64,000 nucleotides of DNA. Origin: Aminobacter niigataensis. Its GTDB lineage: Bacteria > Pseudomonadota > Alphaproteobacteria > Rhizobiales > Rhizobiaceae. The notes under the pieces are model-generated. The model had not been told where the DNA came from, did no database searches, and saw only the letters and a program-made list of their open reading frames with translations. Position numbers and translations under genes: made by a program. The DNA lies in the NCBI RefSeq assembly GCF_014200015.1, contig NZ_JACHOT010000003.1, positions 186,001-250,000 on the forward strand, in the 5' to 3' direction. Positions 2,889-22,865 of the stretch are shown here, piece by piece. Numbering within the stretch: position 1 is the first letter of the stretch; each line of letters opens with the position of its first letter.

Positions 2889-3647
2889 CTAGAGGGATGC
2901 GTCGGTCAGCGACTGTTCGAGGCCGGAGAGATGTATACCACATTCGGTCTTGCCCTGGCCTGCCCAGCGCCCGCTGCGGGCATCCTCGCCGGGCTTGACC
3001 GGCTGGGTGCACGGGAAGCAGCCTATCGACAGGTAACCGTAGGCGACCAGCGGGTTCTCGCGCAAGGCATGCTTGCGCATGTAGTCAGCGAGATCCGAGG
3101 TCGTCCAGCGCGCCAGCGGATTGATGCGAAAGCGCGGGCCGATCTGCTCGATCACCGGCAAGGCCGCGCGCGTCGACGCCTGGAACCGCTTGCGGCCGGT
3201 GAACCAGGCACTGAAGGGCTCGACGCCGCGGGCCATCGGCTCGACCTTGCGCACGTCGCAGCAGGCGTCAGTGCTGGTCTGGTGCAGATTGCCGGTCGGG
3301 TCGATGCGCGCCAGGGCCGCCTCGTCGGGGGTTATGACCCGGATGTCGGTCAGGCCGAAATCGGCGGCCAGCGCGTCGCGATAGTCGAGCGTTTCGCCGA
3401 AATGCTTGCCGGTATCGAGGAAGATCACCGGCAGGTTGCGATCGACTTCGGAGATCAGGTGCAGCAGCACCGCCGAATCCGCGCCGAACGAGGAAACGGC
3501 GGCAATTTCGCCGGCAAAGCGGTCGACGGCCGTGCGCTCGATGATCTCCAGCGGCGAGAGATTGCCGTAGAGCGCGTCGAGCGATGCGGCTTCGGCCAGA
3601 ACCTGCGCTTCGATGTCGGCGTCAGGCTGCCTTGGCTTCGCTAGCAT
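2889..3647 (-). CDS. cysH: Phosphoadenylyl/adenylyl-sulfate reductase, iron-sulfur type
   Basis: A 252-residue thioredoxin-dependent reductase that turns activated sulfate (APS or PAPS) into sulfite. The PP-loop is SSFGADSAV (residues 52-60). Cys129-Cys130 (DACCDVRK) and Cys210/Cys213 (GCFPC) form the 4Fe-4S ligand set characteristic of APS-using enzymes, and Cys236 in TECGIHL is the catalytic cysteine. These cluster cysteines suggest APS rather than PAPS as substrate. The ATG at 3647 is chosen because AAGGAGGCGCTTT lies directly upstream; it overlaps the end of cysI by 26 bases. An in-frame extension to 3728 would lie inside cysI and is unlikely. Confidence 0.93.
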   Translation of the reverse strand: MLAKPRQPDADIEAQVLAEAASLDALYGNLSPLEIIERTAVDRFAGEIAAVSSFGADSAVLLHLISEVDRNLPVIFLDTGKHFGETLDYRDALAADFGLTDIRVITPDEAALARIDPTGNLHQTSTDACCDVRKVEPMARGVEPFSAWFTGRKRFQASTRAALPVIEQIGPRFRINPLARWTTSDLADYMRKHALRENPLVAYGYLSIGCFPCTQPVKPGEDARSGRWAGQGKTECGIHLSGLEQSLTDASL

Positions 3648-7062: not shown

Positions 7063-7380
7063 GACGCGAGGGTTTCCGGAATACCCGTCATTTCTAGCCG
7101 CCATTGCTGCGCTGCAGAAGAAATGCACTCGCGCGCGTCGAGATGGGAGGCAATCGCTTTTGCCCGCGCCCCAGCCCGAGGAGAAAAATATTCCACCGCG
7201 GCGATGCCAGGGTATTTCAATCCCTGCCTCGCTGCTGCGGCCATTGGCAGCCGGCTGCCTCTGCGAAGCCCGACAATCGCCTGCATTCACCGGGTCCGCG
7301 GCCAGGTGCCGCCCGCACAGATCGCCAATCCATAGTGCTTGCTCGCAAGGAAGACGATGGTGCCCCGAAACGCGTTTTTC
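7063..7380 (-). other. Long leader region upstream of cysG with a possible overlapping small ORF
   Basis: About 320 bases separate cysG from the palindrome at 7381. I recognise no known riboswitch in it. On the minus strand a 75-codon frame (7286 to 7059, MQAIVGLRRGSRL...GIPETLAS) ends in an ATGA overlap with the cysG start, the arrangement expected of a coupled upstream gene, but it resembles no family and its codon use is mixed. It may be a leader ORF or chance. Confidence 0.3.
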
Positions 7381-7407
7381 CTAATTTCTACCAAATTAGT
7401 AGAATTA
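7381..7407. promoter_or_regulatory. Overlapping AT-rich palindromes upstream of the cys operon
   Basis: Two nested inverted repeats occupy this site: CTAATTT-N5-AAATTAG at 7381-7399 and TTCTAC-N7-GTAGAA at 7386-7404. The AT content contrasts with the GC-rich surroundings. The site lies between divergently read cysG and the host-attachment gene, so it is a good operator candidate for a sulfur-responsive repressor. Rrf2-type regulators often control cys genes in this order, but none is in the window. Confidence 0.5.
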
Positions 7408-7445
7408 CGGGCAGATGCCCTTCGCCGCCATCGCGGCCGTCATTC

Positions 7446-7470
7446 GGAACCGTGCCGTCGCCCCCGCGTT
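7446..7470 (+). promoter_or_regulatory. EcfG-type general stress promoter
   Basis: GGAAC at 7446-7450, 16 bases, then CGTT at 7467-7470: an exact match to the EcfG consensus. It is 38 bases before the ATG of the host-attachment-like gene and reads toward it. Confidence 0.65.
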
Positions 7471-7508
7471 CACCAAGCGGGGACGATGCGGACAAGAAGG
7501 AGCACGAG

Positions 7509-7958
7509 ATGACGCACATCAATCTGAAGCACGGGATCTGGGTGCTGGTGGCAGATGGCGAAAAGGCGCTGTTCCTGAAGAACCAGGGCGACACCAAATA
7601 TCCGAACCTTGAGGTCGTGCGCGAGATGGAGCAGGACAACCCGCCGACGCGCGAGCAGGGCAGCGATCGCCCCGGCCGCTACAGCGACGGCCCTTCGATC
7701 CATCGCAGCGCGGTCGACGACACCGACTGGCACAGGGTCGCCAAGGAGCGCTTCGCCGACGAAATCGCAGCTCGCCTGTACAAGCTCGCCCATGCCGGCG
7801 ATTTCCAGGAGATCGTACTGGTGGCGCCACCCCTGGTGCTCGGCGAATTGCGCAAGAAGCTGCACAAGGAAGTCGATGAGCGCGTCTCAGCCGAAATTCC
7901 GAAGACGCTGACCAATCACAGCGTGTCCGACATCGAGACGATCCTGATGGCAGCCTGA
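7509..7958 (+). CDS. Host attachment family protein
   Basis: A 149-residue soluble protein of the Host_attach family (baeRF/eRF1-like fold group), recognised by WVLVADGEKALFLKNQ at the start, by DTDWHRVAKERFADEIAARLY, and by the C-terminal EIPKTLTNHSVSDIE. The family name derives from a plant-attachment phenotype; the molecular role is unclear. The ATG at 7509 follows AAGGAG. An exact EcfG promoter upstream suggests induction in general stress, and a strong terminator follows at 7994. Confidence 0.85.
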   Translation: MTHINLKHGIWVLVADGEKALFLKNQGDTKYPNLEVVREMEQDNPPTREQGSDRPGRYSDGPSIHRSAVDDTDWHRVAKERFADEIAARLYKLAHAGDFQEIVLVAPPLVLGELRKKLHKEVDERVSAEIPKTLTNHSVSDIETILMAA

Positions 7959-7993
7959 CCCGCAGAAGTAGTTCCCCAGCAACCAGGCGAGGA

Positions 7994-8021
7994 GTGCCGG
8001 CAGCGATGCCGGCACTTTTTT
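7994..8021 (+). terminator. Rho-independent terminator after the host-attachment gene
   Basis: A perfect 9-base stem (GTGCCGGCA / TGCCGGCAC) with a GCGA tetraloop is followed by six T. It lies 36 bases after the stop codon. Confidence 0.9.
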
Positions 8022-8151
8022 CGGCACGAGCCAAGTTTCTTGGCCGCACAGGGTTGCGCATGCTGACCTGCGTCCACCATATTGGAAATGCAGCGGATTT
8101 CACCGCCGCACCCCACACAATTTTGACTTTCCGAAAGGTGCCGCCGGGACA

Positions 8152-9954
8152 ATGCCGCATGACACGCCCCTCATCGCTACTATCGTCGCCGGTCTGGGGC
8201 TGGCATTCATCTTCGGCGCACTCGCCAACCGCTTCAGGGTGCCTCCGCTCGTCGGATATTTGATCGCCGGCGTGCTGGTCGGGCCGAACACGCCCGGTTT
8301 CGTCGCCGACCAGGAACTGGCACTGGAACTCGCCGAGATCGGCGTCATCCTGCTGATGTTCGGCGTCGGCCTGCATTTCTCGCTCAAGGACCTGTTGTCA
8401 GTGCGCGCCATCGCGGTGCCCGGGGCGGTCGTGCAGATTTCCTTTGCCACGGTGCTTGGCGTCGGCCTTGCCTGGATGCTCGGCTGGTCGCTCGGCGCGG
8501 GCCTCGTCTTCGGCCTGGCGCTGTCGGTTGCCTCGACCGTGGTGCTGCTGCGGGCGCTGCAGGAGCGGCGCATGATCGAGACCGAGCGCGGCCGCATCGC
8601 CGTCGGCTGGCTGATCGTCGAGGACCTCGCCATGGTTCTGGCGCTGGTGCTGCTGCCGGCGCTGGCCGGCGTGCTCGGCGGCGAGCAGCAGGCATCGCAG
8701 GCGCCCAACATCCTCGCGCTGGGCTTCGACGTCGGCGTATGGGGCGTGCTGGGCATCACGCTTGCCAAGGTCGCGGCCTTCGTCGTGCTGATGATGGTCG
8801 TCGGACGCCGCATCATTCCCTGGCTGCTGCATTACGTCGCCCATACCGGCTCGCGCGAACTGTTCCGCCTGTCGGTGCTGGCGATAGCACTCGGCGTCGC
8901 CTTCGGTGCCGCCAAGCTGTTCGGCGTGTCGCTGGCGCTCGGCGCCTTCTTCGCCGGCATGGTGATGAGCGAGTCCGAACTCAGCCACCAGGCGGCGGAA
9001 GAGACGCTGCCGTTGCGCGACGCTTTCTCGGTGCTGTTCTTCGTCTCGGTCGGCATGCTGTTCGACCCGACCAGCCTGCTCAGCAATACCTGGCCGATCC
9101 TCGGCACTCTGTTCATCATTCTCATAGGCAAGTCGGTGGCTGCCTTCCTGATCGTCATCGCCTTCGGCTACCCCATCGCAACGGCGCTCATCATTTCGGC
9201 GAGCCTGGCGCAGATCGGCGAGTTCTCCTTCATGCTGGCCGGCCTCGGCGTCAGCCTCGACCTCTTGCCCGAGCAAGGCCGGGACCTGATCCTTGCAGGC
9301 GCCATCCTGTCGATCGTGCTCAATCCGCTGGCCTTTGCCGGCGCTGCGCGGCTGAAGCCCTGGCTCGAAAAGCGCGCCGGTATCCCCGAAGCCGTCGAAG
9401 CCGTCCCGATCGGCCCGGCGACCGAACCCGGCGAGGTTGCGACCACGACGACCGTGCATGTGAAGGACGACGAGGACGCGCCGCCGCCGACCAAGCTGAC
9501 CGGCCATACGATCCTGATCGGCTACGGCCGCGTCGGCTCGCTCGTCGGCCAGTCGCTGAAGGCCGCCGGAATGGAGTTCCTGGTCATCGAGGATGCGGAC
9601 AAGACGATCGCCAGGCTCAAGGCCGAGGGGATCGAGACTGTCGCCGGCAACGCGGTCAAGGGCGAAGTCTTCGCCTCCGCCAATGCTGCCGGGGCCAGGC
9701 GGCTGATCCTGGCCATCCCCAATGCCTTCGAGGCCGGCCAGATCATCCTCAAGGCCAAGGCCGCCAATCCCGCGATGGTCATCATCGCACGCGCCCATTC
9801 CGATGCCGAAGTCGACCACCTCACCGGCCTTGGTGCCGACAAGGTGATCATGGGCGAGCGCGAAATCGCGCGGGGTATCGTCGAGCAGGTGGTGGCAAGT
9901 GCCGGCACGCCGCCGGCCGGCGAACCGGAGCCAGGCGCGCCGGTAGCGGCCTGA
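8152..9954 (+). CDS. ybaL: YbaL/Kef-type monovalent cation:proton antiporter with TrkA-N domain
   Basis: A 600-residue CPA2-family protein. The N-terminal part to about residue 400 holds a dozen hydrophobic helices with the family segments LVGYLIAGVLVGPNTPG, LLMFGVGLHFS and SLAQIGEFSFMLAGLG. After an acidic linker comes a TrkA-N Rossmann domain starting GHTILIGYGRVGS near residue 451, which binds NAD(H) or nucleotides and gates transport. It sits in the inner membrane and exchanges K+ or Na+ for protons. ybaL is preferred over kefB/C by overall layout and length. It stands alone, so the physiological signal is not evident. Confidence 0.9.
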   Translation: MPHDTPLIATIVAGLGLAFIFGALANRFRVPPLVGYLIAGVLVGPNTPGFVADQELALELAEIGVILLMFGVGLHFSLKDLLSVRAIAVPGAVVQISFATVLGVGLAWMLGWSLGAGLVFGLALSVASTVVLLRALQERRMIETERGRIAVGWLIVEDLAMVLALVLLPALAGVLGGEQQASQAPNILALGFDVGVWGVLGITLAKVAAFVVLMMVVGRRIIPWLLHYVAHTGSRELFRLSVLAIALGVAFGAAKLFGVSLALGAFFAGMVMSESELSHQAAEETLPLRDAFSVLFFVSVGMLFDPTSLLSNTWPILGTLFIILIGKSVAAFLIVIAFGYPIATALIISASLAQIGEFSFMLAGLGVSLDLLPEQGRDLILAGAILSIVLNPLAFAGAARLKPWLEKRAGIPEAVEAVPIGPATEPGEVATTTTVHVKDDEDAPPPTKLTGHTILIGYGRVGSLVGQSLKAAGMEFLVIEDADKTIARLKAEGIETVAGNAVKGEVFASANAAGARRLILAIPNAFEAGQIILKAKAANPAMVIIARAHSDAEVDHLTGLGADKVIMGEREIARGIVEQVVASAGTPPAGEPEPGAPVAA

Positions 9955-10010
9955 CCGGCCGGAGGGTTCGAGCAATCAGGCCCGACGACCCCGTGTCGGC
10001 ATGATCAGCT

Positions 10011-10352
10011 TCACCTGCTGGCGGCGAGCTGGGCGAGATGGCCGGGCAGATCGGTGCCGGGTCCAGACGCATTGATCGTGTCGAAATAGTCGTGCCATCC
10101 CGAAGCGGCGATGCCCTGCAACAGCGCATCCAACGCGGCATTGTCGGGGAAGCTCCAGATGGCGAAGAAGCGATACGGCGCAGGATGCATCTTGGTGGCA
10201 TCGGTTTCGCCCAGTGCGATGGCCTCGACGCCGAGCGCCGACAAGGCAGCCATGCCGGCACCTATGGCCTCGAAGAAGGCCTGCCGCCCGGCGGCGTCGA
10301 GCGCCTGCCATGCGGGTTTCGGGGTATAGAGCTCGGCCAGATAGTGCGCCAC
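10011..10352 (-). CDS. Small conserved protein, probably DUF6616 family
   Basis: A 113-residue soluble protein with the GTG start at 10352, preceded by AAAGGAAACACC, giving the N-terminus (M)AHYLAELYTPKPAW. It contains PYRFFAIWSFPDNAALDAL and SGWHDYF, a ferredoxin-like/ABM-like pattern that I associate with DUF6616; the assignment is tentative. It lies 90 bases downstream of the MarR gene on the same strand, so it may be the regulator's target or co-transcribed partner. No catalytic residues can be named. Confidence 0.65.
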   Translation of the reverse strand: MAHYLAELYTPKPAWQALDAAGRQAFFEAIGAGMAALSALGVEAIALGETDATKMHPAPYRFFAIWSFPDNAALDALLQGIAASGWHDYFDTINASGPGTDLPGHLAQLAASR

Positions 10353-10442
10353 GGTGTTTCCTTTCGATAAAGCGCTGCCCACGGCCACGGGATGCGGCCG
10401 CACAGGCATACGCGGGATTGATGGGGACGGTGGGACGCCGGG

Positions 10443-10967
10443 TCAGCCTGGTTCGGCTGCTTGAGCGCTTGCCTGTGTCACGGTGGGATCGAGATTTTGC
10501 CAGACACGGCGCAGCAGATCGCCAAACATCTGCCTGTCGTCGGCGTTGAAGCCGGCGAACAGCGTGGCGATCCACTTGGTATGCTCGTCGAACAGGACAC
10601 GCGCCGCCGCCTGTCCCTTGGCGCTAAGGCGCACCGAGACCTTGCGGCGGTCCTCAAGACCCGCATGGCGCGCAAGGAAACCATCGCGTTCGAGCCCGTC
10701 GAGCAGCCCGGTGATCGTCGCGCGCGTGACGCCGGCGCGCTCGGCCAACTCGTGCGGCGAGAGCCCCTCGGGGCGATCGTGCAGCAAGAACAACAGCACG
10801 AACTTGCCCTCGGAAAGCTGATGCGGGGCAAGGCGTGCGGCACAATCCCGGTCGATCGCCGACGATAGCGCCAGAATTTCCAGGCACAGCCGCAAGCCGG
10901 TTTCGGGCTGGCCCCGGCGCTTGGCTTCGTCCAGTAAAGCGAGGTGTTTTTGCTCAAGCATTGTCAT
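10443..10967 (-). CDS. MarR-family transcriptional regulator
   Basis: A 174-residue winged-helix protein. The recognition region is LSPHELAERAGVTRATITGLLDGLERDGFLARHAGLEDRRKVSVRLSAKG (interrupted here only for description), with the DRR wing motif of the family. MarR proteins bind palindromes as dimers and usually lose DNA affinity on binding small phenolic or oxidising ligands. Start is either 10967 or the Met at 10961; neither has a clear ribosome site. A perfect palindrome lies 7 bases upstream over the promoter, indicating autoregulation. The downstream small gene may share the transcript. Confidence 0.9.
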   Translation of the reverse strand: MTMLEQKHLALLDEAKRRGQPETGLRLCLEILALSSAIDRDCAARLAPHQLSEGKFVLLFLLHDRPEGLSPHELAERAGVTRATITGLLDGLERDGFLARHAGLEDRRKVSVRLSAKGQAAARVLFDEHTKWIATLFAGFNADDRQMFGDLLRRVWQNLDPTVTQASAQAAEPG

Positions 10968-15060: not shown

Positions 15061-15086
15061 GGAACGAAGCTTCCTCGGCAGCCGTT
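15061..15086 (+). promoter_or_regulatory. EcfG-type general stress promoter
   Basis: GGAAC at 15061-15065, 17 bases, CGTT at 15083-15086, exactly the consensus. It reads toward the COG4315 gene, whose ATG is 53 bases further. Confidence 0.65.
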
Positions 15087-17720: not shown

Positions 17721-19109
17721 TCACGAACGGGTCAGTGCGTCGAGAATGCGAGCCCATGAGCGCTGGCCCTTGTGGAACGAAGTCAGGTCGTACTTCTCGT
17801 TGGGCGAATGGATGCGGTCGTCGGGCAGGCCGAAGCCGACGAGCAGCGATTCCATGCCGAGATAGGTCTTGAAGTCGCCGACGATCGGGATCGAGCCGCC
17901 GACGGCGATCATCACGGCCTGTTTCGACCATTCGTCGGTCAGCGCGTCCTTGGCCTTGTTGAGGAAGGGCGAGTCGTAGGACAGCTGGATCGCCGGCGAA
18001 CCGCCATGCTTGTCGAACTCGACGCTGCAGTCGGCGGGAATGCGCGCGCTGACGAACTCGCGGAAGGCGGTACGGATCTTTTCCGGATCCTGCTTGTGGA
18101 CGAGGCGGAACGACACCTTGGCCGAAGCCTGGGATGCGATCACGGTCTTGAAACCCTTGCCGGTGTAGCCGCCGATGATGCCGTTGAACTCGGCGGTCGG
18201 ACGCGCCCAAACCAGTTCGAGTACCGAGCGGCCCTTTTCACCTGAGGGAATGGACAGGCCGACCTCGCCAAGGAACTTCTCGGCGGTCTCGCCAAGCGTT
18301 TCCCACGACTTCAGGATCTGCGAAGGGGTTTCCTCGACGCCGTCATAGAAGCCGGGGATGGTGATGTGGCCGGTGTCGTCGTGGATGTCGGCCAGCACCT
18401 TGGCCAGGATGCGCACCGGGTTGGCGGCGGCACCGCCATATTCGCCCGAATGCAGGTCGCGGTCGGCGGCGTGCACGGTGATCTCCTCGCCGACGAGACC
18501 GCGCAGCGCGATTGAGATGGCAGGCGTCTCGCGGTCCCACATGCCGGTGTCGCAGACCATGGCGAAATCGGCCTTCAGCTCTTCCGAATTGGCGTCGAGG
18601 AACGGCTTGAGCGACGGCGAGCCCGATTCTTCCTCGCCCTCGAACAGGAGCGTGATCTTGCACGGCAGGCCGCCATGCACCTCTTTCCAGGCGCGGCAGG
18701 CCTCGACGAACAGCATCAGCTGTCCCTTGTCGTCGGACGAACCACGGCCGGTGATGACCTTGCGGCCGGGCTCCAGTTCCTTGACCTTGGGATCAAACGG
18801 ATCGGCTTCCCACAGATCGAGCGGGTCGACCGGCTGGACATCGTAGTGGCCGTAAAACAGCACATGCGGCGAACCGGCGGGGCCGTCATGGTGGGCGACC
18901 ACCATCGGATGGCCGGGCGTGTCGCGGACGCTGGCGTCGAAGCCGATCGACTTGAGGTCGGCGACCAGCCATTCGGCGGCCTTGCGGCAATCGCCTGAAA
19001 AGGCCGGATCGGTGGAGATCGACTTGATGCGGAGCAGGCCGAACAGGCGCTCCAGCGACTGGTCGAGATTGTTGTCGAGACGGTCGAGGACCGACGAGAG
19101 AGCGGACAT
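17721..19109 (-). CDS. M20-family metallopeptidase (dipeptidase)
   Basis: A 462-residue zinc-dependent hydrolase of the ArgE/DapE/CPG2 group. Metal-binding motifs are FYGHYDVQPVDP, GRGSSDDKGQ and FEGEEESGSPSL; a dimerisation domain is inserted around residues 215-340. The family includes dipeptidases and acylases; no narrower substrate can be given. The start MSALSSVLDRLDNN at 19109 follows AAAGGCA. It is transcribed away from polA, with the C-rich-loop sRNA gene in between. Confidence 0.9.
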   Translation of the reverse strand: MSALSSVLDRLDNNLDQSLERLFGLLRIKSISTDPAFSGDCRKAAEWLVADLKSIGFDASVRDTPGHPMVVAHHDGPAGSPHVLFYGHYDVQPVDPLDLWEADPFDPKVKELEPGRKVITGRGSSDDKGQLMLFVEACRAWKEVHGGLPCKITLLFEGEEESGSPSLKPFLDANSEELKADFAMVCDTGMWDRETPAISIALRGLVGEEITVHAADRDLHSGEYGGAAANPVRILAKVLADIHDDTGHITIPGFYDGVEETPSQILKSWETLGETAEKFLGEVGLSIPSGEKGRSVLELVWARPTAEFNGIIGGYTGKGFKTVIASQASAKVSFRLVHKQDPEKIRTAFREFVSARIPADCSVEFDKHGGSPAIQLSYDSPFLNKAKDALTDEWSKQAVMIAVGGSIPIVGDFKTYLGMESLLVGFGLPDDRIHSPNEKYDLTSFHKGQRSWARILDALTRS

Positions 19110-19225: not shown

Positions 19226-19267
19226 AAAAAAGTGCCGCCGTGGTGGAGGGGGGAGCCACGGCGGCAC
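19226..19267 (-). terminator. Intrinsic terminator of the sRNA
   Basis: A 12-base perfect stem with a 12-base C-rich loop, then T6 on the minus strand. The strongest terminator in the window. Confidence 0.92.
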
Positions 19268-19355
19268 ATTCTTCAAACGGTGCGGCAGCCCGGAGAGGGG
19301 GATGAGGCTGCCGCAGGGTCCGGATAGGCGGGGGACGGGCCTGAGACCGGACTTC
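19226..19355 (-). ncRNA. gsrN: GsrN-like general stress sRNA with three C-rich loops
   Basis: About 130 bases of minus-strand RNA fold into three consecutive perfect hairpins. Stem 1: GTCCGG/CCGGAC (19318-19352), loop containing GTCCCCCG. Stem 2: TGCGGCAGCC/GGCTGCCGCA (19281-19315), loop TCATCCCCCTCTCCG. Stem 3: GTGCCGCCGTGG/CCACGGCGGCAC (19232-19267), loop CTCCCCCCTCCA, followed by six T as a terminator. An EcfG-like promoter lies immediately upstream. C-rich loops can pair with Shine-Dalgarno sequences. GsrN of Caulobacter is an EcfG-driven sRNA with a C-rich loop and, as I recall, lies near a metallopeptidase gene and polA, exactly this context. A 34-codon frame (19377-19273) overlaps the promoter and hairpins and is probably not coding. 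Confidence 0.7.
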
Positions 19356-19361
19356 GGCAAA

Positions 19362-19387
19362 AACTGCCGATGCCCATTATTTGTTCC
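19362..19387 (-). promoter_or_regulatory. EcfG-type promoter of the sRNA
   Basis: On the minus strand GGAAC (19387-19383), 17 bases, AGTT (19365-19362); one mismatch to CGTT. The start site would be near 19355, just before the first hairpin. A separate TTACA-N4-TGTAA palindrome lies further upstream at 19418-19431. Confidence 0.55.
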
Positions 19388-19747
19388 TTTGAACATGGCG
19401 ATTCAAGGGCACGAAGATTACACTTTTGTAACATGCGCGTGATCGCCCACCGCGCGCAGTCAGCCCTGCCATCGCCCGCAGATGTATTCCTCGGCCGGTA
19501 ATACGCCGGGTGTCCCGGGCATCGAAATCGTCGCCATGGATAGCGACTGACGTATCCGCCTGAGCATTGTCGAAAACACCCACCGAAAGATGGCCGATGT
19601 TGGTGACTGGGCTGAATTCTTCCCCTGCGTAATGTGCTCGTGGGTGATCTTGATAGCGACTTGAAACATACCATCGCTCTCGCGCCGCAGCCGCCATTGC
19701 AACCGCATCGCAGAGTAAAAAATCTTCTCCATGATGTGCCGGGGCAA
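19377..19747 (-). pseudogene. Possible frameshifted hypothetical gene upstream of the sRNA
   Basis: Minus-strand frame A (from about 19747, MPRHIMEKIFYSAMRLQWRL...VAIKITHEHITQG) and frame B (EEFSPVTNIGHLSVGVFDNAQ...GDDFDARDTRR, to 19377) would join into one protein if a single G were added to the GGGG run at 19622-19625. The joined text looks protein-like but resembles no family I know. The frame-B end runs into the sRNA promoter. Chance open frames are a real alternative. Otherwise the stretch 19388-19886 holds nothing I recognise. Confidence 0.25.
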
Positions 19748-19886: not shown

Positions 19887-22865
19887 ATGAAAAAAGGCGA
19901 TCATCTCTTCCTTGTCGACGGCTCCGGCTACATCTTCCGCGCCTATCACGCGCTGCCGCCGCTGACCCGCAAGTCCGACGGCCTTCCGGTCGGTGCCGTC
20001 TCAGGTTTCTGCAACATGTTGTGGAAGCTGATGCTCGACGCACGCAACACCGAAGCTGGGGTCGTGCCGACGCATTTCGCGGTCATCTTCGACTATTCCT
20101 CGAAGACCTTCCGCAACGAGCTCTACCCCGAGTACAAGGCCAACCGCTCGGCGCCACCGGAAGACCTGATCCCGCAATTCGGCCTGATCCGGCAGGCGAC
20201 CAAGGCGTTCGAGCTGCCCTGCATCGAGATGGAGGGTTTCGAGGCCGACGATTTGATCGCCACCTATGCCCGGCTCGCCTGCGAGGCGGGCGGCGACACC
20301 ACCATCGTCTCTTCCGACAAGGACCTGATGCAGCTCGTCGGTCCCAGCGTGTCGATGTACGACCCGATGAAGGATCGCCAGATCAACGTCCCCGAGGTCG
20401 TCGAGAAGTGGGGCGTGCCGCCCGAGAAGATGATCGACCTGCAGGCGCTGACCGGCGACTCGGTCGATAACGTGCCGGGCGTGCCCGGCATCGGCCCGAA
20501 GACGGCGGCACAGCTGCTCGAGCAGTTCGGCGACCTCGACACGCTGCTCGCGCGCGCCGCCGAGATCAAGCAGGACAAGCGCCGCCAGTCGATCATCGAC
20601 AACGCCGACAAGGCGCGCATCTCGCGCGAACTGGTGCGGCTCAAGGTCGACGTGCCGGTGACCGACGTGCTCGAAGACTTCGTGCTGCAGCCGCCCAACG
20701 GGCCGAAGCTGATCGGCTTCCTCAAGACGATGGAATTCACCTCGCTGACGCGCCGCGTCGCCGAGGCCACCGGCACGGAGGCCGGCGAGGTCGAGGCTGT
20801 GCCTGTCAGCGTGCAGTGGGGCGCTGACAGGCATGGGCCTGACGTCGGTTCGGGAGCGGCACCGGCGGCGACCGCCGCGGCTCCTGCAGCGCGTGCGAAC
20901 GGAGGCAACGCTGCAGCCGCAGCCCCCTCGTCCGCCTCTGCCGAAAGCGGCAACGTGCACGACACTCCCACCGCCCTCGCCAACAAGATCGCCGAACGGG
21001 CAGCCTCGCAAAAGTTCGACCATGCGGCCTATGTCACCATCCGCGACCTGGCGACCCTGAACAACTGGATCGCCGAGGCAAGACAGGCCGGCGTCGTCGC
21101 CTTCGACACCAAGACCACCTCGCTCGACCCGATGCAGGCCGAACTGGTCGGCTTTTCCCTGGCAACGGCACCCGGTCGCGCCGCCTATGTGCCGCTGGCC
21201 CACAAGAGCGGCCGCGGCGATCTTCTCGGCGGCGGACTGGTCGAGAACCAGGTACCCGTGCGCGACGCGATCGCCGCACTCAAGGCGCTGCTCGAAGACG
21301 CCTCCGTGCTCAAGGTGGCGCAGAACCTGAAATACGATCTGGTGGTGCTGGACCGGCACGGCATCGACGTGCACTCGTTCGACGACACGATGCTGTTGTC
21401 TTACGTGCTCGACGGCGGCACCAATGGCGGCCACGGAACGGATTCCCTGTCGGAGAAGTGGCTCGGCCACGCGCCGATCCCGTTCAAGGAGATTGCCGGT
21501 TCGGGCAGGAATGTCGTCGGCTTCGACCAGGTCGACATCGACAAGGCGACCGCCTATGCGGCCGAGGACGCCGACGTGGCGCTGCGGCTGTGGCGCGTGC
21601 TCAAGCCGCGCCTCGCTGCCAAGGGTGTGGTCTCGGTCTACGAGCGGCTGGAACGGCCGCTGGTGCCGGTGCTGGCGCGCATGGAACAGCGCGGCATCTC
21701 GGTCGACCGCCAGATCCTGTCGCGGCTTTCGGGCGAACTGGCCCAGGGTGCTGCCCGTCTCGAAGACGAAATCAACGCAATCGCCGGCGAGCGCTTCAAC
21801 ATCGGCTCGCCCAAGCAGCTCGGCGACATCCTGTTCGGCCGAATGGGCCTGCCCGGCGGAACCAAGACCAAGACGGGCCAGTGGTCGACATCGGCGCAGG
21901 TGCTGGAAGACCTTGCCGCCGAAGGCCACGAGCTGCCGCGCAAGATCGTCGACTGGCGCCAGATGACCAAGCTCAAGTCGACCTATACAGACGCCCTGCC
22001 CGGCTTCATCAATCCTGAGACCAAGCGCGTCCACACCTCCTACGCGCTCGCCGCCACTACGACGGGACGGCTGTCGTCGTCGGACCCGAACCTGCAGAAC
22101 ATCCCGATCCGCACCACCGAAGGCCGCAAGATCCGCACTGCCTTCATTGCCGACAAGGGCAACAAGCTGATCTCGGCAGACTACAGCCAGATCGAGCTGC
22201 GCGTGCTTGCCCATGTCGCCGACATCGGCCAGCTCAAGCAGGCCTTCGCCGACGGCGTCGACATCCATGCGATGACGGCGTCCGAGATGTTCTCGGTTCC
22301 GGTGGAAGGCATGCCGTCGGAGATCCGCCGTCGGGCCAAGGCGATCAATTTCGGCATCATCTACGGCATCTCCGCCTTCGGCCTCGCCAACCAGCTGTCG
22401 ATCCCGCGCGAGGAAGCCTCCGACTACATCAGGAAGTATTTCGAGCGCTTCCCCGGCATCCGCGCCTACATGGACGAGACCAAGGCGTTCTGCCGCGAGA
22501 ATGGCTATGTCGAGACCATCTTCGGCCGGCGCATCCACTATCCGGAAATCCGGTCGTCCAATCCCTCGGTGCGCGCCTTCAACGAACGCGCCTCGATCAA
22601 CGCACGCCTGCAGGGTACGGCCGCCGACATCATCCGCCGCGCCATGATCCGCATGGAAGACGCTCTTGTCGCTGCCAGACTGTCGGCTCGGATGCTGCTG
22701 CAGGTGCACGACGAACTGATCTTCGAGACCGTCGAGAACGAGGTGGAGGCGACGATCCCCGTCGTCCGCCATGTCATGGAAAACGCCGCCATGCCGGCGG
22801 TGTCGATGTCGGTGCCGCTGCATGTCGACGCCCATGGCGCCAACAGCTGGGACGAGGCGCATTGA
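19887..22865 (+). CDS. polA: DNA polymerase I
   Basis: A 992-residue family A polymerase. Residues 1-290 form the 5'-3' exonuclease (LVDGSGYIFRAYHAL, GFEADDLIATYA, GVPGIGPKTAAQLL). An Ala/Pro-rich linker spans about 310-365. Residues about 370-560 are the 3'-5' exonuclease: Exo II NLKYDLVVLD and Exo III YAAEDADVAL are intact, but Exo I reads FDTKTTSLD, with Lys409 where the metal-binding Glu of DxE is expected. Residues about 600-992 are the polymerase with DYSQIELRVLAH, RRRAKAINFGIIYG and QVHDELIFE. It fills gaps and removes RNA primers. Proofreading is predicted weak or absent. The gene is one base from the LysE gene downstream. Confidence 0.95.
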   Translation: MKKGDHLFLVDGSGYIFRAYHALPPLTRKSDGLPVGAVSGFCNMLWKLMLDARNTEAGVVPTHFAVIFDYSSKTFRNELYPEYKANRSAPPEDLIPQFGLIRQATKAFELPCIEMEGFEADDLIATYARLACEAGGDTTIVSSDKDLMQLVGPSVSMYDPMKDRQINVPEVVEKWGVPPEKMIDLQALTGDSVDNVPGVPGIGPKTAAQLLEQFGDLDTLLARAAEIKQDKRRQSIIDNADKARISRELVRLKVDVPVTDVLEDFVLQPPNGPKLIGFLKTMEFTSLTRRVAEATGTEAGEVEAVPVSVQWGADRHGPDVGSGAAPAATAAAPAARANGGNAAAAAPSSASAESGNVHDTPTALANKIAERAASQKFDHAAYVTIRDLATLNNWIAEARQAGVVAFDTKTTSLDPMQAELVGFSLATAPGRAAYVPLAHKSGRGDLLGGGLVENQVPVRDAIAALKALLEDASVLKVAQNLKYDLVVLDRHGIDVHSFDDTMLLSYVLDGGTNGGHGTDSLSEKWLGHAPIPFKEIAGSGRNVVGFDQVDIDKATAYAAEDADVALRLWRVLKPRLAAKGVVSVYERLERPLVPVLARMEQRGISVDRQILSRLSGELAQGAARLEDEINAIAGERFNIGSPKQLGDILFGRMGLPGGTKTKTGQWSTSAQVLEDLAAEGHELPRKIVDWRQMTKLKSTYTDALPGFINPETKRVHTSYALAATTTGRLSSSDPNLQNIPIRTTEGRKIRTAFIADKGNKLISADYSQIELRVLAHVADIGQLKQAFADGVDIHAMTASEMFSVPVEGMPSEIRRRAKAINFGIIYGISAFGLANQLSIPREEASDYIRKYFERFPGIRAYMDETKAFCRENGYVETIFGRRIHYPEIRSSNPSVRAFNERASINARLQGTAADIIRRAMIRMEDALVAARLSARMLLQVHDELIFETVENEVEATIPVVRHVMENAAMPAVSMSVPLHVDAHGANSWDEAH

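Follow-up and report, generated by a model that had tools for sequence, protein, structure and literature searches.

Does the minus strand between an M20-family peptidase gene and polA of Aminobacter niigataensis encode a relative of the Caulobacter stress RNA GsrN, as a first-pass annotation of the letters alone had proposed, or an RNA of another kind? The window (the whole 64,000-nucleotide stretch analysed, positions 186,001 to 250,000 of contig NZ_JACHOT010000003.1) bore out much of what had been described there: both flanking genes were recovered by Pfam, and the minus-strand structured RNA with C-rich loops and a T6 terminator (19231-19226) was confirmed by sequence and folding. The RNA gene is directed away from polA and lies ~116 nt from the start of the peptidase gene, on the same strand. 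The family name did not hold. The locus matched the Rfam model RF02342 (ar7) over its full length (cmscan, window 19227-19372, model 1-145 of 145) with 104.8 bits against a cut-off of 60, and ar7 was found above the cut-off once in the own genome, the ten weak matches that came next having E values of 0.3-8.4. The score over the cut-off is accompanied by four hairpins with the terminator last, conserved loops and an adjacent polA; the window RNA is an ortholog of the known rhizobial family ar7 (SmrC7/SmelC023), thus of an already-known kind, and had been wrongly named GsrN.

The background on this family and on its comparators was taken from excerpts of published accounts (PMC5596092, PMC2780559, PMC2848018, PMC7143759, PMC2573895, PMC2873474, PMC3616915, PMC10538546, PMC3687685, PMC9275681, PMC4167512, PMC4843759, PMC5869019, PMC3927594, PMC9561847), to which the statements below on published work are limited. 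There, the founder of ar7 (SmrC7/SmelC023/sra03 of Sinorhizobium meliloti) is placed between polA and SMc02851, a polA neighbourhood shared by the window RNA. SmrC7 is described as a free RNA with a primary form of 148-150 nt and a processed form of 106 nt, two G residues close together having been identified as its starts by RACE (with Northern data too), and as ~13-fold higher in nodules. Reinkensmeier et al. (2011) list 29 relatives with four hairpins, beside polA in all but one, and ReC06 of Rhizobium etli is given as a SmelC023 relative. We put at roughly three in four the chance that the fuller reading is right, namely an ar7/SmrC7 ortholog of ~149 nt with four hairpins, loops that would pair with ribosome sites, and the promoter and upstream box proposed below.

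Table 1. Coordinates of the features at the ar7 locus, in window positions.
Feature	Positions	Strand	Basis
ar7 (SmrC7-type) sRNA, projected primary transcript of ~149 nt	19226..19374	-	cmscan RF02342; start projected from RACE-mapped SmrC7
polA, divergent neighbour	19887..22865	+	Pfam DNA_pol_A, E = 8e-156
M20-family peptidase gene, 3' of the sRNA on the same strand	17721..19109	-	Pfam Peptidase_M20 and M20_dimer
EcfG-like string GGAAC-N17-AGTT, judged not the conserved promoter	19362..19387	-	In register in 8/152 distinct loci
-35 CTTGAA (RpoH1-type)	19402..19407	-	CTTGAA 143/152, CTTGAT 4/152, neither 5/152 of the distinct loci listed
-10 ACAAAT, 17 nt past the -35	19379..19384	-	NCANNT at the same spacing in 138/147 loci with a -35
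Box TCAC-N6-GTTAC-N6-GTAAT, probable regulator site	19417..19442	-	Motif counts against shuffles, spacing, genome search
5' hairpin CGGCA-GTTTT-TGCCG	19355..19369	-	Folds; helix 1 of the covariation test, 3/5 pairs double-changed, 89.8% of cells paired
Stem-loop I, loop GUCCCCCG	19318..19352	-	Folds; helices 2 and 3 of the covariation test; projected SmrC7 processing site
Stem-loop II, loop UCAUCCCCCUCUCCG	19281..19315	-	Folds; helix 5, 9 pairs counted, 7 double-changed, 100% of cells paired
Stem-loop III with T6, intrinsic terminator, loop CUCCCCCCUCCA	19226..19267	-	Folds; helix 6, 11/12 pairs double-changed

The stretch 19226-19387 folds with a minimum free energy of -75.0 kcal/mol, compared with a shuffled mean of -52.4 (z = -6.1; 0 of 200 shuffles equally stable). 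The loop letters given before (minus strand; I, GTCCCCCG, 19336-19329; II, TCATCCCCCTCTCCG, 19305-19291; III, CTCCCCCCTCCA, 19255-19244) agree with the folds, and the three consecutive perfect stems that had been described are there as hairpins, stems II and III being indeed perfect, but stem I is imperfect (an internal loop separates an outer helix of 6 bp from an inner one of 4 bp). A fourth hairpin, at the 5' end, had been missed and part of it read as promoter. For comparison with relatives, 87 dissimilar rows were picked, of which 77 were aligned and 47 kept as a core after removal of the divergent ones (the divergent other-family match L033 and the extra copy L133, both described below, are excluded from the alignments). 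Across the 47 core sequences the four hairpins have 95.7% of cells paired and 27 of 37 pairs changed on both sides, with a covariation score of 0.364 versus 0.189 for shuffled alignments (none of 500 as high) and no more than 0.125 for slid controls, the last comparison being biased in its favour by the use of the window's own fold as the structure. The outermost pair of stem II (helix 4) is kept in only 48.7%. Conservation of the stems in relatives was one of the points by which the earlier claim was to be judged, and they proved to be both conserved and covarying. An RNAalifold consensus of the 77 sequences, divergent ones included, gave double changes in 20 of its 22 pairs; it omits the 5' hairpin, part of which pairs there with the terminator, so that the 5' hairpin rests on the covariation test with 47 sequences and on the published model.

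The conserved loops are C-rich and predicted to be single-stranded. Of 40 aligned members recruited by the model and independently of their loop sequence, 38 have at least four consecutive C in loop I, 40 in loop II and 33 in loop III (the alignment columns include a few stem letters), and CCTCC is present in loop III of 33; in the window, loop III (CUCCCCCCUCCA) contains the anti-Shine-Dalgarno core CCUCC. The letters of loops I and II differ from each other, and each set is conserved. A further set of at least 118 loci (L060-L177) came from a scan for the exact letters of loops I and II, and loop conservation is there by construction.

The distribution of ar7 follows the window's family. Nine of 10 genomes in the window's genus carry it, as do 261 of 297 genomes of the family at E <= 0.001 (218 over the cut-off), while an even sample of the order yielded 16 of 297 at E <= 0.001, of which 14 were over the cut-off, all in the window's family. 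The two other matches in the order are unlike ar7, one (L033) having CCTCCTCCC hairpins and the other (L032) being devoid of loops II and III. No ar7 was found at E <= 0.001 in 14 control genomes; with looser thresholds, matches below the cut-off appeared in Thermus (E <= 0.01) and in eight genomes including Caulobacter (E <= 10). One paper states that Smr7C was not found in Mesorhizobium huakuii 7653R; among the matches listed, ar7 is present in other records named Mesorhizobium. Three loci of the window's genus are identical to loci named Aminobacter across the 210 nt that were compared (L009/L139, L010/L110 and L011/L107). Of 194 related loci, 172 have polA within the flanking sequence retrieved (several flanks being truncated, and duplicates counted).

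Several side observations concern additional or related RNAs. Chelativorans sp. J32 carries a second ar7-like copy (L133, ~3390-3520, on the same contig as L112), where the usual promoter is absent, the locus is devoid of polA and the peptidase gene, and the RNA stops after stem II. In genus g194 (G381, G451, G505, G549 and G585) ar7 is duplicated, with two matches per genome at E <= 0.001. The weak ar7 matches L018 (window's genus) and L033 (another family of the order) are in fact series of hairpins whose CCTCC-type loops resemble the CCUCCUCCC family. In the own genome, a terminator-like hairpin with a CCCCCTCC loop (L002, C1:187167-187291, minus strand; 19.2 bits to ar7) is possibly another C-rich loop RNA. 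The window also holds a full-length Rfam match to 5_ureB_sRNA (RF02514; 63484-63773, minus strand; 126.8 bits versus a cut-off of 40).

The close spacing to the peptidase gene on the same strand (~116 nt before its start) might suggest a 5' leader or attenuator of that gene and not a free RNA, which we regard as very improbable: the RNA ends in a covarying intrinsic terminator, ar7 is separated from the peptidase gene by a marR gene in the Rhizobium and Sinorhizobium loci inspected (marR is absent from this place in the window), and SmrC7 itself is reported as a free RNA of 148-150 nt.

Upstream signals of the ar7 gene were counted in 166 entries with the motif, window included, that reduce to 152 distinct loci (the 5 without a -35 were kept in the denominators), and in a divergent set hand-picked from the weakest or missing family matches (40 genomes, of which 31 gave a match at E <= 0.01). 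Shuffles for these motif counts permute single bases and, as related sequences inherit shared sites, the locus counts do not represent independent events. The ar7 gene is preceded by a conserved CTTGAA-N17-NCANNT promoter (Table 1), and CTTGAT or CTTGAA recurs in 22 of 30 upstream regions of divergent members (1.6 in shuffles), several with GCATCT-like -10s. The spacer between the two hexamers (window 19401-19385) is itself strongly conserved over 147 loci, GCCACATTC-like and with single columns up to 98-99%, which is unusual for a spacer. The RpoH1 motif published for S. meliloti is CTTGAA-N15-16-CCTATAT, to which the window -10 is only a partial fit, and RpoH and RpoD predictions are reported to overlap widely in that species; hence the sigma factor is something that we infer. 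In a review table SmelC023 is given RpoD and RpoH1/2 motifs and not RpoE2, and R. etli ReC06 is reported to be up after heat shock, with both RpoH-like and RpoE-like motifs given in silico. Judged from its sequence, the ar7 promoter looks to be of heat-shock or housekeeping type rather than GsrN-type, and ar7 would be transcribed by the heat-shock factor RpoH together with RpoD.

The EcfG-like promoter that had been read at this place is, as a string, present (GGAAC-N17-AGTT, 19387-19362), but it occurs in register in only 8 of the 152 distinct loci listed. Its GGAAC overlaps the conserved -10 (19384-19379), and its AGTT (19365-19362) is part of the 5' hairpin, a position within the transcript provided that the RNA begins where SmrC7 was mapped to begin. 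The looser GGAAC-N16-18-NGTT is shared by 7 of the 9 distinct loci in the window's genus; the eighth occurrence, at a different place, is in L154, which also has a strict GGAAC-N17-CGTT further upstream that spans the TCAC-type upstream box. GGAAC anywhere in the 112 nt upstream was counted in 21 of 152 core loci (12.4 in shuffles) and in 1 of 30 divergent ones (2.2 in shuffles). Strict GGAAC-N16/17-CGTT sites occur at four other places in the window (7446+, 15061+, 58622+ and 17003-) and GGAAC-N16/17-NGTT has nine occurrences in total, so that the string alone is unsurprising. Three of the strict sites stand before reading frames: 7446-7471 (plus strand) is 63 nt before a 149-aa frame, 15061-15086 (plus strand) 78 nt before the frame of a Lipoprotein_15 protein, and 17003-16978 (minus strand) 30 nt before a 109-aa frame with no Pfam match over the cut-off; going by the sites, these frames are likely members of the general stress regulon.

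The possibility that the window RNA is nevertheless a GsrN ortholog, and thus an EcfG-activated general-stress sRNA, can draw on its C-rich loops (as in GsrN), on the GGAAC-N17-AGTT string and on the RpoE-like motif published for ReC06. It is confronted with the match to ar7, with a motif that only 8 of the 152 distinct loci have in register (one of them elsewhere), with the lack of an ar7 match at E <= 0.001 in the control Caulobacter (below the cut-off, and only at E <= 10) and with synteny. GsrN had been described in the annotation as sitting beside a metallopeptidase gene and polA, neither of which is mentioned in the main text of the GsrN paper; its relatives are reported to reside typically at the ecfG/nepR/phyR locus, C. 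crescentus excepted. In this 26-contig draft the general stress response (GSR) locus (ecfG, nepR, phyR) is on contig 2 and the sRNA on contig 3, away from the location typical of GsrN. We therefore reject the assignment to GsrN together with EcfG control and consider it scarcely credible. The own GSR locus was also scanned for a GsrN-like gene (cmscan of a 16-kb stretch, E <= 0.5), which returned only one weak match to a Burkholderia model; five strict EcfG motifs are present at 7279-10955 of that stretch, with three more further away, and an RNA outside the known models may still lie there.

A genuine ar7 RNA could also have acquired, in the window's genus, an added EcfG-dependent promoter that would yield a shorter RNA devoid of the 5' hairpin. 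Stress sRNAs often have multiple promoters, and the string in 7 of 9 distinct genus loci is consistent with such a start. We find it quite unlikely, as the string ends in AGTT and not in the CGTT of the four other window sites, both of its halves overlap elements that are otherwise conserved (the -10 and the 5' hairpin), and two loci (L012 and L015) have lost the motif.

Further upstream, the ar7 genes share a phased box (Table 1), whose two overlapping repeats are both far in excess of shuffles: TTAC-N6-GTAA is present in 139 of 152 core loci (0.10 in shuffles) and 7 of 30 divergent ones (0.12), and TCAC-N6-GT[GT]AC in 117 of 152 (0.05) and 18 of 30 (0.03). The distance from the end of GTTAC-N6-GTAAT to the -35, measurable in 143 of 152 loci with one relaxed base permitted, falls into two classes, 9-11 nt (101 loci) and 20-21 nt (42 loci), with nothing between. 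The ~11 bp between the two classes, about one helical turn, would leave the box on one side of the DNA, the arrangement expected of a factor in contact with RNA polymerase. Both spacing classes are found in records named Rhizobium, and the long one also in Sinorhizobium/Ensifer and Shinella, which amounts to few independent events. The full box pattern has a single occurrence in the own genome with up to one mismatch.

The box resembles CenR-type repeats of S. meliloti, where the srlA repeat (under CenK-CenR control) is reported as AGTCAC-N6-GTGACT and the chvI form as AGTCAC-N6-GTTACT. The motif given for Rhodobacter sphaeroides CenR, a direct repeat TGA-N8-TGA, counts against CenR at the ar7 box. 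Also against CenR, AGTCAC-N6-GTKACT is absent from the own genome, and the relaxed inner repeat of the box is not enriched there (6 places versus 16 for the reversed control). A link between ar7 and CenR was not encountered in the literature searched, a body of work that does not include the main ar7 paper (del Val 2012). The phased box may be new, and may equally be already described in that paper. A response regulator bound at the box would tune ar7 transcription. The more ambitious proposition that makes ar7 the RNA component of a circuit for envelope and heat stress (with an OmpR-family regulator, CenR or a close relative, at the TCAC-N6-GT[GT]AC box, an RpoH start, and the three loops as a graded multi-seed translation brake set by cleavage in loop I) is speculative, and we think it more probably wrong than right by a wide measure.

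By analogy with other C-rich loop RNAs, and from the modelled fold, ar7 most likely works by base pairing between its loops and G-rich ribosome sites. The three C-rich loops would serve as single-stranded seeds for G-rich ribosome-binding sites, and their pairing would mostly lower translation. The published forms were projected onto relatives: counted 106 nt back from the last terminator U in 12 loci of the Sinorhizobium group, the processed 5' end falls in the first letters (GUC) of loop I GUCCCCC, a placement in which S. meliloti's own sequence was not used and which the choice of last U shifts by one to three nt. In L036 and L080 a G stands at both the 148- and the 150-nt end, in agreement with the published SmrC7 starts. 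Cleavage in loop I would thus leave a ~106-nt form with loops II and III and either open or remove the first seed. SmrC7 was reported as undetected in Hfq co-immunoprecipitation; ar7 may for this reason fall outside the classical pairing RNAs that depend on Hfq.

The complement of loop II resembles a ribosome site followed by AUG (GGAGAGGGGGAUG). Its exact form occurs in the own genome at the sRNA gene itself only, and with up to two mismatches at 141 places (100 for the reversed control). Within the first 30 of these, 29 are other than the sRNA, and three (L184, L198 and L204) have an ATG that opens at least 80 codons; no clear target emerged from these 30 by the full complement. The frame at L184 is MarR-like (170 codons) and shares ~28-38% identity with the marR genes beside ar7 in other genomes. 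We dropped marR as a loop II target, as the same frame stays open for 327 codons upstream as well and the leaders inspected of ar7-adjacent marR genes have no GGAGAGGGGGAUG-type site. Pairing of the C-rich loops with G-rich mRNA, as proposed earlier, is still the best candidate mechanism. The same search outcome, together with the similarity of the three loops and the published lack of an Hfq co-immunoprecipitation signal for SmrC7, would suit an RNA that acts through its loops on a protein or on rRNA/ribosomes (as a sponge or decoy) and not on mRNA leaders. We deem this unlikely, given that loops I and II differ in their letters and are each conserved, and that the C-rich loops of GsrN are reported to pair with mRNA.

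With the claim moved from GsrN to ar7, the locus becomes a member of an sRNA family retained by 261 of the 297 family genomes sampled. The published accounts cited here name no target for this sRNA. Leads on when ar7 is made come from its RpoH-type promoter and phased box, and one on how its seeds are used from the projected cleavage in loop I.

Set against known systems, the window RNA bears a likeness of no more than kind to 6C RNA (RF01066), Scr3202 (RF02833), F6 (RF01791) and sX13 (RF02232), which have C-run hairpins and gave weak matches of 14.6 to 29.6 bits; membership was rejected for all four, as each match stays under its own cut-off (6C, 29.6 bits versus 47). With the CCUCCUCCC hairpin RNAs (SmelA075/SmelA099 and CcsR1, RF02791) it shares serial hairpins with anti-Shine-Dalgarno loops; the CCUCCUCCC motif itself is absent from the window RNA, which differs from CcsR1 in its loop letters and scores 17.8 bits against a cut-off of 65.3. 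C. crescentus GsrN, as published, is similar in its C-rich loop or loops, terminator and processed form, and differs in belonging to another family and in its EcfG promoter, length of ~100 nt, stable 5' half and GSR-locus synteny in most relatives; Hfq affects full-length GsrN, whereas SmrC7 gave no signal in Hfq co-immunoprecipitation. Compared with its ar7 relatives, the window stands apart by the lack of marR between the sRNA and the peptidase gene, and by the GGAAC string that overlaps the -10 in its genus. Its likeness to ar7/SmrC7/ReC06 extends over the whole model, the four hairpins, the conserved C-rich loops, the adjacent polA and the terminator.
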